56,270 bases of DNA from Hysterium pulicare CBS 123377 (lineage: Eukaryota > Ascomycota > Dothideomycetes > Hysteriales > Hysteriaceae), in the NCBI GenBank assembly GCA_000467715.1, contig AJFK01000747.1, positions 1 to 56,270 on the forward strand, in the 5' to 3' direction. The notes beneath the pieces are model-generated. The model saw nothing but the letters and a program-made list of their open reading frames with translations, was not told where the DNA came from and ran no database searches. Made by a program: the position numbers and the translations under genes. Below, piece after piece: positions 13,801 through 37,778 of this stretch (the first letter of the stretch is position 1; each line of letters starts with the position of its first letter).

Positions 13801-13943
13801 AAAAAGAAAGCAAAGTTGGAGAGCCCAGGAATCGAACCATGGGTCTTCCTCGACCCAGCCCGCTAATAATACCCCCTAAGAATAGAATGATAAGAATAGC
13901 ACCGGCCAGGCTCGAGGTTATGCTACCACTACACCAACTCCCC
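13801..13943 (-). ncRNA. tRNA-like element with a long extra arm in place of the anticodon arm
   Basis: On the minus strand the element runs 13943 to 13818. The ends GGGGAGT and GCTCTCC can pair over seven positions with G-U allowed. An A-box-like TGGTGTAGTGG with a GTG/CAT D-stem follows, and a B-box GGTTCGATTCC lies near the 3' end. The D-arm wording and the AAGACCC before the T-arm resemble fungal tRNA-Asp. Instead of a 17-nt anticodon arm there are about 75 nt whose ends pair (CCTCGA with TCGAGG, then GCTA with TAGC further in). The T-stem has two mismatched positions in my alignment. A TTTTT run follows at 13805-13801, as for a Pol III terminator. It may be a tRNA pseudogene, an intron-bearing tRNA, or kin of the 31-32 kb modules. 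Confidence 0.6.
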
Positions 13944-14558
13944 TTTGTATCTGTGAGGCTCTTTGATTGAGAGATTGATTGAAAGAAATAGTATATGTAG
14001 TTGTAGAACATGTATTCGTGCATGATTGCGTGAGGGGTATACTGAGAACGGCATCCGCGATGGACCAGGGGTCTTGGTCAGGGGCGTGGTGGAGTCATCC
14101 CGAGGTTCGGGTCAAGACACCTGCCGATACCTCGATTGAGGCCTAACCTGAGGGTGTCACTCCACTTAGATAAGGAGGTCTCTATGAGCAAGTATCCAAG
14201 TATCCAATGGATATTCTGTGAGCCCTATGGATACGCATTCTCTCGGCGGCACTCTACTGGGAGACGCACGAGTCTACGATGCATGCATCTACATCAGCAC
14301 CTCATACACTGACTACCTAGGCATCCACATAGATAATCTCTCTGAGCTAGCTGTGGTTATCTCCGATATTTGACGGTGCAGCTGGGGGGGTCTCGCCCAG
14401 CGACTGGACAGCCGTGGGTGGGGGCATCTCAGAAGGGAATGCGCACTTACTCCAGAGAGCATTCGGACACCTGTGAACCATTGTTCGGCAATTTCACCTG
14501 GCAGTGTCAGCAGATTGTGTCTCCGACAATCGGTCATGAGATCGAGGGGGCTTAGGCA
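13944..14558. other. Intergenic, no gene recognised
   Basis: A loose inverted repeat (GTGGAGT near 14088 and ACTCCAC near 14158) frames sequence containing CCTCGATTGAGG, but the pairing inside is weak. The right end approaches a TATA box at 14559. No coding stretch is supported. Confidence 0.35.
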
Positions 14559-28165: not shown

Positions 28166-29761
28166 ATGCGTGCCTTTTGCAGAGTGCTTGTGTCGGCTTT
28201 CCTGGCTTCGGTCGTTCAAGCTTCTCTTCAGATTGTACCTGGAGGAACGTGGACAGCGGTATGACCTACATATTCCAATCATTCCTGCCATCAGCACGCC
28301 ACTCCACAGCCCTTTGAGAAGTCATAGTTCTTGGACCTAACATCTCTGTCATAGACTAATACCGGTCGTCACATTCAAGCTCACGGCGGTGGCATCCTCA
28401 AAGTCGACTCCACGTACTACTGGTCCGTCCTCTCGCGGTCCCTCCTCCAGAACCCACTAACCCCCGCACTCTAGGGTCGGCGAAGATAAAACCAATGGCT
28501 CTGCCTTCCAAAACATTAACTGCTACAGTAGCACAAATCTTGTAGAATGGAAGTACGAAGGGGCAATCCTCAGCCGAACCGGCAGCGGAGAACTTGGGCC
28601 CAACCGCGTCATCGAACGCCCAAAGATCATCTACAACAAGAGCACCAAGCAATATGTGCTATGGATGCACATCGATAGTAGCAACTATGGAGAAGCGGCG
28701 GCGGGGGTAGCCACGGGGAATACGGTTTGCGGACAGTATCAGTATAAGGGGAGCGCGAAGCCTCTGGGATTTGAGAGTAGAGATATGGGATTGTTTGTTG
28801 ATGATGATGAGAAGGCGTATCTTTTGACAGAAGATGTAAGTGGCTCTTTGATCACCCCGCTATTTATACTCTTACTCTACCTTATTTCATTCTACCTAAC
28901 AGCAGCAACCGTTTCTAACGAAGATCCTCACACTAGCGCAAAAACGGTCTCCGCATCGATCTCCTTTCGGACGACTACCTTACCGTAAAATCCACCACCC
29001 ACCTCTGGCCGGACCACATCGAAGCCCCCGCAATGATCAAATCCACAAGCGGAGTATACTTCATGTTCGGCTCCCACCTCACAGGCTGGGATCCCAACGA
29101 CAACGTTTACTCCACCGCGACATCTCTCTCCGGCCCGTGGTCTTCCTGGAAAGGCTTTGCGGACTCTGGATCCAAGACGTATACCTCCCAAACCAACTAC
29201 ATCTTGCCATTAGGCAAGAATGCGATCTATATGGGAGATAGATGGGTGAGCTCGAATCTGATGCGGAGTACGTATGTTTGGTTGCCGTTGACTTTGGATG
29301 GAACGAGTGCGAGTATGAAGAATGCAGTCAGTTGGGTGCCCAATCTGCAGGCTGGTACCGCGAGTTCAGGACCCGCGGAGAATAGCTATGAAGGCGAGGC
29401 AGCTACATACTCCGGCGGCGCAAAAACCGTCTCCTGCTCCGCTTGCTCTGGCAAAAACGCTGCCGGGTACATCGGCGGCTCGGACAATGGAGCCATCGCC
29501 CTCGACAATATCACTAGCAGCGCCGCGACTCGTACGACAATCAGAATAAAGTACGAGAATGGAGATAAGACGGAGAGGTTTGCGGATGTAAGTGTCAACG
29601 GGGGTGCTAGCCAGAGGATCGGTTTCCTGCCTAGTAGTGGTAGTGATCCGGATAGTAGTAGCTTGAATGTGGATTTGAAGAGTGGGACGAATACTGTGAA
29701 GATCGGCATGACTGGGAGTTGGGGACCGGATGTTGATAGGTTGATGGTTCCGCAGTCGTAG
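28166..29761 (+). CDS. Secreted GH43 exo-beta-1,3-galactanase-like protein with CBM35-like module
   Basis: A complete four-exon gene (28166-28258, 28355-28422, 28475-28835, 28937-29761) of 448 residues. Residues 1-19 are a signal peptide (MRAFCRVLVSAFLASVVQA). The catalytic five-bladed propeller spans about 25-320, with HIQAHGGGILKVDSTYYWVG near the start. In characterised GH43 subfamily 24 enzymes the usual catalytic Asp base is absent, and two Glu plus a Gln matter; plausible equivalents here are Glu101 (IERPK), Glu203 (IEAPAM) and Gln259 (TSQTNYILP). Residues about 328-448 (SYEGEAATYSGGAKTVSCSA to VDRLMVPQS) fit CBM35. This domain pair is known from fungal exo-beta-1,3-galactanases acting on arabinogalactan. 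The second intron uses a weak GTCCGT donor but keeps the frame. It would act outside the cell on plant wall arabinogalactan proteins. Confidence 0.9.
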
Positions 29762-31057: not shown

Positions 31058-31440
31058 GATTCAGGCTGGATCTGCTGAGGTGTTACTGTTGGCTAGGCGT
31101 CTTGGGTATGTGTGTAGATGTTAGCTTGGCGTCATGAGTCTTGGGTTACGACCTCCTGGCTTTTGAAAACCAAGATTTTGGTTTTGCATAGTATGAGAGA
31201 TGGCTTGGGTTTGTTCATAGCGATGATAACAAACTGCATCTTTGAGTTATACAAATCATTCTCCAAAGATTCGTTAAGCCTATTGGCAATAGCTTGGTGC
31301 AGATTCCGGCAGGGAAGTCCCACCTTCCCTTCACTGTTCACTGGCCACCCCCCTGCCATACCGCCACGGAAGCATAAGCCTCGCCTCGCAAAAATAAAAT
31401 AGCAAAAACCAAAAAGTTGCAACTCACAAAACAAATCCCA
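31058..31440. other. Intergenic, no gene recognised
   Basis: Sequence between the 2EXR gene and the tRNA-like cluster. Short frames on both strands without support. Confidence 0.4.
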
Positions 31441-31446
31441 ATGACC

Positions 31447-31452
31447 AAAAAA
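31447..31452 (-). terminator. T-run after module A
   Basis: Six T on the minus strand (ACTTTTTTGG), 8 nt after the hairpin; fits an RNA polymerase III stop signal. Confidence 0.5.
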
Positions 31453-31460
31453 GTATCCCC

Positions 31461-31493
31461 GCCACCGATACAAGGTAGACTTGCACCGATGGC
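31461..31493 (-). ncRNA. Hairpin downstream of tRNA-like element A
   Basis: GCCATCGGTGCAAG and CTTGTATCGGTGGC, separated by five bases, form a 14-bp stem with three G-U pairs. It starts 10 nt after the 3' end of element A. Confidence 0.75.
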
Positions 31494-31503
31494 ATAGGGA
31501 ATC

Positions 31504-31588
31504 GGCGAGGAACGGAATCGAACCGTCTCCATTTCGATGGGATTACGAGAATCACATTTGGAACTATGCACCTGTACACCACCTCACC
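31504..31588 (-). ncRNA. tRNA-like element A of a three-module cluster
   Basis: Read on the minus strand from 31588, the 5' end GGTGAGG pairs with the 3' end C-C-T-C-G-C-C over seven positions (one G-U). TGGTGTACAGG stands at the A-box with a GTG/CAT D-stem. The T-arm is GACGG, loop TTCGATT, CCGTT, with the B-box GGTTCGATTCC. Between D-arm and T-arm lie about 40 nt that do not form a normal anticodon arm. A TATATATATT lies about 30-40 bases upstream. It is 85 nt long. It could be a degenerate tRNA, but acceptor and T-arm are fully pairable while only the anticodon arm is abnormal. Confidence 0.7.
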
Positions 31589-31823
31589 CTAAATATGAAA
31601 TGCCAAGCAATTTTGGAATATATATAGGTGTGAAATGATCAGGGGGTTGAGCAAAGAATAGACATGGGGCGGAGACGTGCGTGTCATTGGCCGAGGCACG
31701 GGTCAAATATGGATCGGGAAGGTGCACTACTTATTAACATTGGTATGGCAGAGATTCGCGATATCGTAGGTTCGCTAAGGCGTTAATGTACAGCTACGTT
31801 ACCAATATTCAAAAGGCTCTAGC

Positions 31824-31828
31824 AAAAA
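31824..31828 (-). terminator. T-run after module B
   Basis: TATCTTTTTGC on the minus strand, 5 nt after the hairpin; fits a Pol III stop signal. Confidence 0.5.
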
Positions 31829-31833
31829 GATAG

Positions 31834-31871
31834 TTAGTAGTAGCAACGAGCCGTCTCCTTGCTACTACTAA
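31834..31871 (-). ncRNA. Hairpin downstream of tRNA-like element B
   Basis: TTAGTAGTAGCAA and TTGCTACTACTAA are exact inverted repeats (13 bp). After one mismatch the stem continues with CTC/GAG to a 4-nt loop. It starts 5 nt after element B. Confidence 0.8.
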
Positions 31872-31876
31872 TTATT

Positions 31877-31957
31877 GGCGAGAGACGAAATTGAACCATC
31901 GCCGTATCGTCAAACTAAATAGTTTGAGTACACTATGCACCACTACACCATCTCACC
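31877..31957 (-). ncRNA. tRNA-like element B
   Basis: From 31957 the 5' end GGTGAGA pairs with T-C-T-C-G-C-C at the 3' end (seven positions, one G-U). The A-box is TGGTGTAGTGG. The T-arm is GATGG, loop TTCAATT, TCGTC, all pairable with G-U. In the anticodon position a long hairpin replaces the normal arm: GTGT/ATAC at the base, then TCAAACT/AGTTTGA around a 4-nt loop. Total 81 nt. An AT-rich TTTATAGTTTATAATT lies just upstream. Confidence 0.7.
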
Positions 31958-32191
31958 CTGAATTATAAACTATAAAGTAGATTCTGGATACATTTGGTAT
32001 ATAGAATAATCACGCCCTTTAGCAGAGCGTAGGAGGTGGACGAGTCTGATCACGGGTTTGGGCTGGGAATGAATTGGAAGCGAACACTGTTTCCCCAAGA
32101 CGCCCGGCCTTCTAAACTTCCGAGTTCAAAAATGACATTGAAGGTTCAACAAATCTACTTTGAGGAACAAAGCATTTAACTAACTCCCTGC

Positions 32192-32197
32192 AAAAAA
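32192..32197 (-). terminator. T-run after module C
   Basis: TTATCTTTTTTGC on the minus strand, 5 nt after the hairpin; fits a Pol III stop signal. Confidence 0.5.
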
Positions 32198-32202
32198 GAT
32201 AA

Positions 32203-32243
32203 GGGTGCCTGACATGTTTATCGAATAAACATGTCAGCCACCC
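32203..32243 (-). ncRNA. Hairpin downstream of tRNA-like element C
   Basis: GGGTG, one unpaired base, CTGACATGTTTAT and its exact complement ATAAACATGTCAG, then CACCC, form an 18-bp stem with a 3-nt loop. It starts 3 nt after element C. Confidence 0.85.
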
Positions 32244-32246
32244 ACG

Positions 32247-32323
32247 AGCGGGAGACGGACTCGAACCATCGCCTCAACATGCTATTGACAACATGTTGCT
32301 GTGCACCACTACACCATCCCACC
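32247..32323 (-). ncRNA. tRNA-like element C
   Basis: From 32323 the 5' end GGTGGGA pairs with T-C-C-C-G-C-T (seven positions with G-U). The A-box is TGGTGTAGTGG with D-stem GTG/CAC. The T-arm is GATGG, loop TTCGAGT, CCGTC, all paired. The anticodon-position hairpin is CAACATG/CATGTTG around a 10-nt loop TTGTCAATAG. TTGTCAA inside this loop looks like a tRNA-Asp loop with anticodon GTC, but the loop is three bases too long. At 77 nt it is the closest of the four elements to a real tRNA and suggests the family came from tRNA-Asp. Confidence 0.7.
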
Positions 32324-32329
32324 TGGCCA

Positions 32330-33118
32330 TACTGATGAATTGGAAGAGTTGGTCGAATAACAATCTTATAACCGCAAATGGTGGTTGTTATCAAGTGGGC
32401 TAACTTCCCGAGATCGGAGTGTGAATCGAAAGTCTTTGGGCTCAGGGAGTTGGGCTGGCGCCGATACTCCGATACTCCCCCGGAGGTTCAGTTGCAATAA
32501 CTCAAGGAGCTCGCTCTTTATCACAGAAGTCATTGGTACGTTCACCGTTGCTTCGTCTTGGTGTTGCCAAAGCCCCGGCGGATGCTATGTTTCAATGTAT
32601 CCAGCACGAATTTGTCATTAGCATCTTTGAACTACGAATTACGGTCGGGTCACTCAGATGGGAGTCTTAGCATGGTCGAAGTGAGCGGTTCCGAGACAGG
32701 TGCTTGCCCATGCGTTAAGAGTTCCAATTCGTTCTGGCCTTTGTCAACGTACGTCGGAGGATTAAGGAGCATGAACTGCAATATACGTCAACCACGATGT
32801 CAGAGCAAGAACCACCACTAAGCAAATGGGACGGCTCGGAGAAACTTCACGCAAGGAAATGGGGAAATAAAGCATTATGCGCTTACAATGCGAACGACTA
32901 AAACTTCAGCCGTATACGGCAACTTTTTCCTTCCCAACTCATCCACTAGTCATGACAGCTCTCGCTCAAGAACACAAACACCGTCTCTTCCCAAGTTCAG
33001 CAGAAAACTACATGACAAGGAAAATCTTTAGGAATTCGAACTAATTGCATATCCGATCCCAATCCTATTCCAACAGCGTCTACACCAACTGGGCAATAAA
33101 AGATCATATCGCTCACCT
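32330..33118. other. Intergenic, no gene recognised
   Basis: Plus-strand frames here begin at non-ATG codons and lack splice context. The 3' flank of the GNAT gene lies at the right end. Confidence 0.4.
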
Positions 33119-33774
33119 TCACGTCTTAGGTGGATCCCGCAACATATTAGTATTACGCTCCATGCCCTCCGCTCCATACTTCGACAGATCGAACCAAGTC
33201 TCTTTGACAGGATAGAAGCCCAGCCGTTCATAAAGCGGGCGTCCCATATCCGAAGCCTCGAGGTAGGTAGGCAAGCCCGCTTTATCAGCTTGCTCGATAC
33301 CCCATTTCAGGAGCATGGCACCTGCTCCGAGGCGATGGTGTTCGGGGAGTGTGACTACCATGGGTAGGACTATTCATGCTCCCTCATCAGCCGCTGTTTT
33401 TGCAATTTTCCTCCATCGGGAACCAGGCACATGAATTTCACGTGATCGTCGAAAAACTCACAATAAAACGGCTTTCCTCCCATCCACTCCCGTCTACTCC
33501 TAGCAAGATACTCCAGAAAGTCTCTCTCTGCCGCCACAAAACTCCCCGGCTGCGGCTCCTTGAATTTCGGCAAAGTAGCTTCAACCTCCTCCTCGCTCCT
33601 CTCTTTCAGATTAATCCGCCCCTTGGCGCACGAAATCATCTTTGCCGTGTCCTTATCAACCACTTTTAAATAGTGGCAGTCTTTATCGTTCATGCCGGTG
33701 TTGAAGGCGGCAAGTTGGACGCGCGTGAAGTCTTCGAAGTCATCTGCATTGCAGTAGGAGAGTTCAAGAGGCAT
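33119..33774 (-). CDS. GNAT-family N-acetyltransferase (187 aa)
   Basis: Two exons, 33462-33774 and 33119-33369, joined by a 92-nt intron with donor GTGAGT, branch CTGAT and acceptor AATAG. The join restores the family-like stretch GGKPFYF-LPMVVTLPEHHR. The N-terminal half (MPLELSYCNADDFEDFTRVQ) has the first strand and helix. KVVDKDTAKMISCAKGRINL forms the central strands. HHRLGAGAMLLKWGIEQADK is the acetyl-CoA pyrophosphate-binding motif (R/Q-x-x-G-x-G/A), and LEASDMGRPLYERLGFYPVK is the typical C-terminal motif B. It transfers acetyl from acetyl-CoA to an unknown amine; such proteins are common, uncharacterised intracellular enzymes in filamentous fungi. Size and motif order are normal. 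Confidence 0.9.
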
Positions 33775-36329: not shown

Positions 36330-36419
36330 TCAAACCCGTCTTCATTCGTTCTATGCTAATATGAGGAATATATGTCAAACCCGTCTTCATTCGCTGTATA
36401 CTAATCTGAACAATATGTG
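36330..36419 (+). repeat. Two 45-bp direct repeats upstream of the metalloprotease-like gene
   Basis: TCAAACCCGTCTTCATTCG begins at 36330 and again at 36375, and the whole 45-bp units match with a few differences. They lie 120-210 bases before the start codon, so they belong to the promoter or leader. Confidence 0.8.
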
Positions 36420-36536
36420 TCAATCAATTTATCTGGAGACTTTCCAAATGTTCCACCACATATACCCTCTAGAGAGCTCGAACATGTCGAAGACAGCAGA
36501 CGCTCACTTCTTCAGAACTCCAAGCTCGTGTCAACG

Positions 36537-37778
36537 ATGGTGCGACTCGTTCTCCTGGCCTTCGTCGGCGCCGTCGCTGCACAAGCACCCGCAACCTTCA
36601 CTCCCAATCCTAAAGTAGGCCCTGGTGGATCGCAATACAAGGACTCCGACCACTTCCGCATCTACAATGCCTCCGACGCCGACGCAAACGGCGCAATCAA
36701 GATGCTGGAGGCAGCGTACTCCTGCTTCGTGGATACCCTAGGCTGGCGTTCGGCGGGCCTGTCTTGGAGCGCCACAGACAGCGGACCTTACTACAAGACG
36801 AACATATACGGCGTCGCGGATGGCTCCATGCCCGGTGCCGCAGGACAGCAATGGACGGACGATGCTACGGGGTTGACGTTCTTGAAAGTCGTGTCGAAGT
36901 ATCTGACTGAGCCTGGAGTTGTTGTTCACGAATACGGCCATGCGATGACATATTCGGAACATACCTGGGTTGATCAGAAGCGTACTGGTGCCTGGTGGGA
37001 GACGGTTGCCAATTTCGTCGCGGACACTTACAAGACCTCCGATCTTTGCGCGGATGCTAGAAGTAAGGCGGGAGTGGCTGTTGGCACTTCTCTTATCGAT
37101 CTGAAAAAGGTCATTGGGGACTCTCAGCAGGTCATTGTCGATGGCACGAGTAACACGGGGAACTACTATCAAGCATGGCCATTCCTGACCTACTTGACGA
37201 ATAATCCGGATAACTACAGTGGACTCGGCAGAAACGCTCTGCGCGACATGTTCCGGAAATACAGCAAAGGCAGCAATGAGACACCTCTGCACGTCCTTGA
37301 GCGCGTCGCTTCTCCCACCAAAATCCAAACAATAGTCGGTCGCTACTGGGCAAGGATGGCATATGTGGACATCGGCCACAAAGTAGCTCAACAGCTCTTC
37401 TTGAGCTCTCGCAAGAGTCTGACGTACGCGAATCTCGACTCGACTGGAAGTGGAAAGTACAAAGTGAAAGCCGCACGCCAACCAAAGTACATGGGCGCCA
37501 ACATCATTCCATTGAAGGGCACTGGGTCGATCAAAGCCATTGTCAATGCCACCGTACCCTTTACCGCGACGTTGGCGGTTCGGGCTGTGGACGGTACTGT
37601 GCGGTACACGGATCTTGTTGATGGGGCTGGCCAGACGAATGTAGCGAGTGGGGAGGAAACGAGTCTTGTTGTTGCGAACACGCCCAGCATTCTCATTTTG
37701 TACGACCCTTTCTCGCTGACCACCGATGTGAACACTGGCATGGATTATAATATCGAACTGTCAGGGGCCACGGCGTAG
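36537..37778 (+). CDS. Secreted DUF6055-like putative zinc metallopeptidase (413 aa)
   Basis: The ATG at 36537 is chosen because a signal peptide follows at once (MVRLVLLAFVGAVAA, cleavage near AQA); upstream in-frame sequence has no such signal. The mature protein contains H131-E-Y-G-H135 in GVVVHEYGHAMTYSEHTW, a gluzincin-type zinc motif, and Glu155 in GAWWETVANFVAD as a candidate third ligand. This arrangement occurs in the DUF6055 family of secreted fungal and bacterial proteins. The C-terminal third (from about 325) is beta-rich with repeated Thr/Val stretches, probably a wall- or carbohydrate-binding region. Single exon. Protease activity is inferred from the motif only; no substrate known. 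Confidence 0.85.
   Translation: MVRLVLLAFVGAVAAQAPATFTPNPKVGPGGSQYKDSDHFRIYNASDADANGAIKMLEAAYSCFVDTLGWRSAGLSWSATDSGPYYKTNIYGVADGSMPGAAGQQWTDDATGLTFLKVVSKYLTEPGVVVHEYGHAMTYSEHTWVDQKRTGAWWETVANFVADTYKTSDLCADARSKAGVAVGTSLIDLKKVIGDSQQVIVDGTSNTGNYYQAWPFLTYLTNNPDNYSGLGRNALRDMFRKYSKGSNETPLHVLERVASPTKIQTIVGRYWARMAYVDIGHKVAQQLFLSSRKSLTYANLDSTGSGKYKVKAARQPKYMGANIIPLKGTGSIKAIVNATVPFTATLAVRAVDGTVRYTDLVDGAGQTNVASGEETSLVVANTPSILILYDPFSLTTDVNTGMDYNIELSGATA

Follow-up and report, generated by a model that had tools for sequence, protein, structure and literature searches.

What are the three tRNA-like elements that lie one behind another on the minus strand of a contig of the fungus Hysterium pulicare CBS 123377, and what could their transcripts do? 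The window analysed, 56,270 bp, is a whole contig (C493) of a 37.2-Mb genome assembled in 596 contigs. The genome's size, an intron-bearing HapC gene and matches to Dicer and Argonaute are in keeping with a filamentous fungus. The initial annotation had placed three minus-strand modules at 31588-31447, 31957-31824 and 32323-32192, and all of them were located there. These neighbouring modules, M1, M2 and M3, start at 31588, 31957 and 32323, respectively (start-to-start spacing of 369 and 366 bp), and each has the same order of parts: a cloverleaf head with A and B boxes, preceded by a TATA element, then a hairpin of 18-19 bp, and then a run of five or six T. The features are:

31618..31626, minus strand: TATA element TATATATAT upstream of M1, at -38
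31503..31588, minus strand: M1 tRNA-like head, 86 nt including the discriminator (Rfam tRNA model, 26.4 bits; constrained fold)
31456..31500, minus strand: M1 hairpin, 19 bp (5+14) with a 5-nt loop (z = -5.5 for the fragment 31458-31505)
31447..31452, minus strand: M1 terminator-like run, T6
31998..32003, minus strand: TATATA upstream of M2, at -46
31876..31957, minus strand: M2 tRNA-like head, 82 nt including the discriminator (Rfam tRNA model, 31.4 bits; ARAGORN tRNA-???; fold)
31830..31875, minus strand: M2 hairpin, 19 bp (3+13+3) in the whole-module fold (z = -6.9)
31824..31828, minus strand: M2 terminator-like run, T5
32365..32371, minus strand: TTATAAG upstream of M3, with TATA at -47
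32246..32323, minus strand: M3 tRNA-like head, 78 nt including the discriminator (Rfam tRNA model, 32.8 bits; ARAGORN tRNA-???; fold)
32203..32243, minus strand: M3 hairpin, 18 bp (5+13) with one G-G mismatch and a 3-nt loop (z = -7.5)
32192..32197, minus strand: M3 terminator-like run, T6

No reading frame of 120 aa or more was found between 31057 and 33370; shorter ones, of up to 113 aa, overlap the modules. Folded whole, M1, M2 and M3 gave z = -3.6, -7.0 and -6.2, and in each case none of 200 shuffles was as good.

The relationship of the modules to one another was examined by pairwise comparison against shuffled sequences. The heads are homologous: in each of the three comparisons, 0 of 300 shuffles reached the score. 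The hairpins are not alike (96, 300 and 223 of 300 shuffles did as well), yet each is self-complementary, with z = -5.5, -6.9 and -7.5 for the M1, M2 and M3 fragments alone and no shuffle of 200 as good for any of them, just as had been described from the initial inspection. For the upstream flanks, 10 of 300 shuffles were as good in the M1-M2 comparison (a weak likeness), 22 in M2-M3 and 202 in M1-M3; the corresponding counts for the downstream flanks were 272, 37 and 287. The 366/369 bp spacing points to duplication of a whole unit, which the flanks do not prove. A genome-wide search for further modules, which the initial annotation had proposed, was conducted with a 26-mer head pattern and up to three mismatches; it returned three places in 37.2 Mb, namely M1, M2 and M3 themselves with no mismatch each, while the reversed control pattern gave one. 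DNA searches of the genome with whole M1 and M2 recovered themselves only, besides the M2 hairpin matching its own other arm; M3 was covered through the head pattern. There was no exact match to this pattern in viral and prokaryote contig collections, and no match to M1 in phages. As far as these searches reach, the modules appear to be a private three-gene family rather than a repeat family. Membership in a tRNA-derived SINE family, which would account for a tRNA-like head with A and B boxes in several copies, is rejected by copy number as extremely improbable, since the head occurs at this locus alone by the searches made, the bodies are unrelated, the copies are in tandem at 366-369 bp, and dispersed copies with a common body were absent as far as searched.

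Could the modules instead be tRNA pseudogenes, or intron-bearing tRNAs, with inverted repeats lying downstream by chance? Their Rfam scores are low (26.4, 31.4 and 32.8 bits, against a gathering score of 29 bits that M2 and M3 exceed and M1 does not reach), which favours this reading. A filtered scan of the whole window with the same model reported, of the modules, M3 alone. ARAGORN made no tRNA call at M1. In intron mode it read M3 as tRNA-Asp with a 3-nt intron, which also favours such an origin. Against it stands the state of the stems: with acceptor, D and T stems of 7, 5 and 5 pairs, 51 of 51 stem cells are paired over the three modules despite their divergence. Two acceptor pairs are changed on both sides; this covariation, taken alone, gives the stems only weak support, because 54 of 500 shuffles match both stem pairing and covariation and there are three sequences. 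The A box and the B box are present in every head. In the constrained folds, the anticodon region of M1 is an irregular hairpin of 38 nt, the M2 arm consists of 4 bp, an internal loop, 7 bp and a 4-nt loop, and the M3 arm of 10 bp with a 4-nt loop, so none of the three has the 5-bp stem and 7-nt loop fit for decoding. The long M2 and M3 helices, in the fold modelled here, cannot present an anticodon, which again speaks against the pseudogene explanation. The tRNA-like fold with pairable acceptor stem, internal boxes and abnormal anticodon arm, as first described, was thus recovered.

The M2 and M3 anticodon arms (within the heads at 31876-31957 and 32246-32323) are also long self-complementary hairpins whose sequences are unlike each other. 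The head itself may therefore hold a second variable hairpin, and each of the two transcripts could, if folded as modelled, carry two variable hairpins, the second within the head.

Further evidence against chance repeats comes from the sequence behind the heads. In the folds of whole modules, each hairpin begins 0-2 nt past the discriminator base, and the T-run follows after 3, 1 and 5 nt in M1, M2 and M3, respectively; when the M2 tail was folded without its head, the hairpin started 4 nt in, with 16 pairs and the T-run 5 nt behind. The presence and order of these parts agree with the initial annotation, including a run of five or six T behind each hairpin (T6, T5 and T6), whereas its figures (a hairpin of 14-18 bp, 3-10 nt after the head, with the T-run 5-8 nt further on) gave way to 0-2 nt, 18-19 bp and 1-5 nt; the earlier values seem to count inner helices only. 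Runs of T4 or longer do not occur earlier within M1, M2 or M3. The T5+ run sets in 47-50 nt past the module heads, just beyond the hairpin, compared with 0-22 nt past 12 ordinary tRNAs, and the hairpin therefore lies inside the expected Pol III transcript. Upstream, TATA at -31 to -51 was seen at 13 of 19 ordinary tRNA loci; the background frequency is 6.5% over the window as a whole and 7.7% within 31058-33369. When folding energy was calculated for the 52 nt before each T5+ run in 172,920 bases (the window and 37 loci, both strands, the loci being a non-random sample fetched for other purposes), the modules ranked first to third of 366 runs, with -29.0, -29.0 and -24.2 kcal/mol, ahead of the other 363; the best of these had -21.2 kcal/mol, and the mean over the 366 runs was -8.6. 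The tails of the 19 ordinary tRNA loci, which are those returned in addition to M3 with 63 of 1229 candidates scored and not every tRNA gene, gave -1.5 to -12.6 kcal/mol, and such a hairpin tail was present in 0 of 19. The hairpin and terminator statistics, with a displaced T-run in three of three modules, lead us to reject the pseudogene explanation as very unlikely; the outcome that was to have undone the first proposal, ordinary tRNA pseudogenes with random flanks, is contradicted. We conclude firmly that the three modules are hairpin-bearing tRNA-like genes.

What such genes would produce can be judged from their layout and from the genome around them. In our opinion, the modules probably form a small tandem gene family, transcribed by Pol III, whose products are microRNA-like small RNAs. 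The degenerate, non-decoding head would serve as an internal promoter through its A and B boxes, aided by the upstream TATA element, and Pol III would read through head and hairpin to the T-run. RNase Z would then cut past the discriminator base, releasing a hairpin of 18-19 bp with a U-tail at the T-run; Dicer would take off the loop, and Argonaute would use one arm of the resulting short duplex. Between copies the head has been retained and the hairpins have changed completely, so that the target would differ from copy to copy, and the 5' side of the M3 hairpin would pair with HAP3/HapC (NF-YB) mRNA across the start codon and repress it. Silencing machinery appears to be encoded: of five Piwi-domain matches in the genome, four, three strong and one partial, lie above the cut-off and correspond to Argonaute, and two Dicer_dimer matches lie above theirs. 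Hairpins of 18-19 bp are short for Dicer, and it also counts against this explanation that, of three arms searched, one gave a match such as that to HAP3. The initial proposal of a Pol III promoter head with an exchangeable hairpin, possibly a small-RNA precursor, is in agreement with the A and B boxes, TATA elements, displaced T-runs, Dicer and Argonaute matches, and HAP3 match; judged by these sequence-level tests, the modules likely make small RNAs.

Similar arrangements have been reported elsewhere. The TMERs (tRNA-miRNA-encoded RNAs) of murine gammaherpesvirus 68 (MHV68), the best-known case of this layout, form several clustered genes with non-decoding heads. Their tRNA-like 5' part is joined to hairpins that are processed to active miRNAs (PMC8223928). 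Like the TMERs, the modules have a tRNA-like head that is followed at once by a hairpin, with a T-run resembling a Pol III terminator after it; unlike these viral genes, they are cellular and fungal, with one hairpin each and enlarged anticodon-arm hairpins, the likeness being one of description. In Neurospora, milR-4 derives from a transcript with two predicted tRNA-Ala, the milRNA lying between the two tRNA-Ala genes and the star strand after the second; silencing of RNase Z almost abolishes milR-4, which its authors likened, with regard to the RNase Z route, to the MHV68 miRNAs (PMC3547838). That locus, too, is fungal and combines a hairpin, a tRNA-type part and a T-run behind in a Pol III transcript, with RNase Z making the 5' end of milR-4 (PMC3547838). 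The modules differ in that a tRNA mimic serves as the dedicated head of each, and in that a single compact hairpin contains both arms. Dedicated mimics as heads, each with a compact hairpin of its own, make the modules more like TMERs than like milR-4. At Neurospora milR-1 to milR-3, a T-run behind the small RNA and Pol III are common ground, as is a TATA-like element in milR-1; unlike the modules, most milR loci are not beside tRNA or similar genes, and a tRNA-like head goes unmentioned in the passages of that report drawn on here (PMC3547838). Among the open-licence papers listed in the literature searches, a scope outside which most subscription papers fall, no title or abstract opening concerned a fungal family of tRNA mimics with hairpins. 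A re-analysis of fungal hairpin RNAs in eLife put loci matching structural RNAs in its lowest tier (PMC9757828), and genes like these modules could thus be passed over.

The modules might also act as whole molecules, that is, as Pol III noncoding RNAs made of a protein-binding tRNA mimic and a stabilising 3' hairpin, which would shield the 3' end or aid termination, without any small RNA. The heads are better kept than the hairpins, of which the shape is kept and the sequence is not, and the tRNA-like part of an MHV68 TMER alone rescues pathogenesis (PMC8223928); both observations fit such a function. However, a comparable hairpin before the T-run is absent from the 19 ordinary tRNA loci, the near-perfect antisense match of M3 to HAP3 would then be a coincidence, and both the length of the hairpins and their beginning, 0-2 nt from where RNase Z is expected to cut, are suited to a small-RNA precursor. 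We therefore consider whole-molecule action unlikely.

Possible targets were sought genome-wide with one 20-nt arm per hairpin, allowing up to three mismatches and using reversed patterns as a control. The M1 arm found one place beyond itself, at three mismatches (reversed control, four), and the M2 arm two, all at three mismatches (reversed control, two). For the M3 arm, six places beyond itself were found (reversed control, one), five at three mismatches and one at a single mismatch, which reads as G:U (C416:77746-77765). Places within the three-mismatch limit are expected at 2.2 per 20-mer by arithmetic, or 2.8 when scaled from 2,953 sampled window 20-mers, and the five three-mismatch places (L043-L047), of which L046 falls inside opposite-strand reading frames, were treated as chance. 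The single-mismatch place is another matter: a 20-mer place with at most one mismatch is expected 0.004 times per arm, three arms having been tried, and 0 of the 2,953 sampled window 20-mers had a place at two mismatches or fewer in 118 kb of other loci. At this place lies a major regulator gene, the exons of which match the CBF/NF-Y B domain and, once joined, align from residue 43 on with HapC, a member of the CCAAT-binding complex (E = 4.6e-55); the putative start codon is placed by the reading frame upstream of the domain, the 42 preceding residues being without a match. The corresponding feature of M3 is:

32222..32243, minus strand: 5' arm and loop of the M3 hairpin, 22 nt, complementary to the predicted HAP3/HapC start-codon region (L042:1500-1521, contig C416)

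The pairing extends over 22 contiguous positions, 21 Watson-Crick and one G:U, and it is the 5' arm of the hairpin that is antisense to HAP3 mRNA. Over the first 24 nt of the M3 tail, numbered from where RNase Z is expected to cut, there are 22 Watson-Crick pairs, one G:U and a mismatch at position 2, with contiguous pairs at positions 3-24; the duplex of this 24-nt guide with HAP3 has an energy of -40.1 kcal/mol. Part of the matched sequence (ATGTCNGCCACC, in L042:1500-1523) may be common start-codon context; ATGTCNGCCACC recurs at L044, one of the three-mismatch M3 places, which also holds ATGTCAGCCACC.

It is quite possible, though short of probable, that the modules are small-RNA genes and that the HAP3 match is due to chance or is left over from the inverted duplication in which the M3 hairpin arose, HAP3 not being regulated by M3 at present. 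This is a sub-case of the preferred explanation, and their likelihoods overlap. The origin of such hairpins in a young inverted duplication of the target is a model from plant miRNA work. The near-perfect arms of M3 would fit it, and no comparable match was obtained with the M2 or M1 arms. On the other hand, comparison by eye shows a single wobble where the 5' arm departs from a perfect complement of HAP3 and two base differences between the 3' arm and HAP3 itself, which is the expected direction, albeit in a small sample. Two further points weigh against the preferred explanation. The predicted 5' product of M3 begins with G; Neurospora milRNAs prefer a 5' U (PMC3547838). In Clonostachys rosea, deletion of dcl2 is accompanied by a decrease, not an increase, of the HAP3 homologue (PMC8557909), a change that, by analogy, would run opposite to direct repression. 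To return to the reading of the modules as microRNA-like genes, we regard action of M3 on HAP3 as a good lead provided by sequence complementarity. One further pairing, a GU-rich one between the 3' arm of M1 and a site beside an Argonaute match (L034), scored 19.6 versus 18.4 for the best of eight shuffles of the same arm and 19.2 for the highest-scoring of the full set of 48 shuffled arms; it seems, insofar as its orientation can be told, to lie on the strand opposite to the gene, and it was dropped as chance.

More tentatively, the modules may constitute a cellular TMER-like family in which tRNA mimics provide a Pol III promoter and an RNase Z handle, and at least one hairpin acts on the HAP3/HapC start codon. 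If so, the tRNA-plus-hairpin route, seen in a herpesvirus and at one Neurospora tRNA-Ala locus, would also exist as a dedicated cellular gene family. For the origin of fungal microRNA-like genes, the locus offers tandem copies in which a tRNA mimic seems to be the fixed carrier of changing hairpins, together with a named candidate target; RNA silencing and the CCAAT-binding complex are thereby connected in a way that can be tested directly.

Several other elements were noted. A geometric tRNA-like scan recovered 12 of the 19 ordinary tRNA loci and all three modules; L004, L005 and L031, where a similar A box also occurs, were not among its results. Within the window, 10336-10295 gave a weak model match (17.1 bits, E = 0.041) and is without the module layout. 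A fourth tRNA-like element, at 13817-13945 on the minus strand, has an A box and a B box, and its acceptor ends are paired; the anticodon arm measures about 70 nt. This element lacks a 3' hairpin and is followed at about 11 nt by a T5 run (fold z = -2.3). It scored 13.5 bits (E = 0.34) with the R1 model, received no ARAGORN call with introns of up to 150 allowed, and represents either another mimic or a tRNA gene that contains a long intron; the four elements mentioned in the initial annotation may include it (as 13945-13817). No 5.8S rRNA was found in the assembly with 39 of 1289 candidates scored, and the rDNA repeat may be missing from it. Plus-strand reading frames in the neighbourhood of the modules, at 29033-29761 and 36417-37778, match the carbohydrate-binding module families CBM13-like/CBM_35 and DUF6055.
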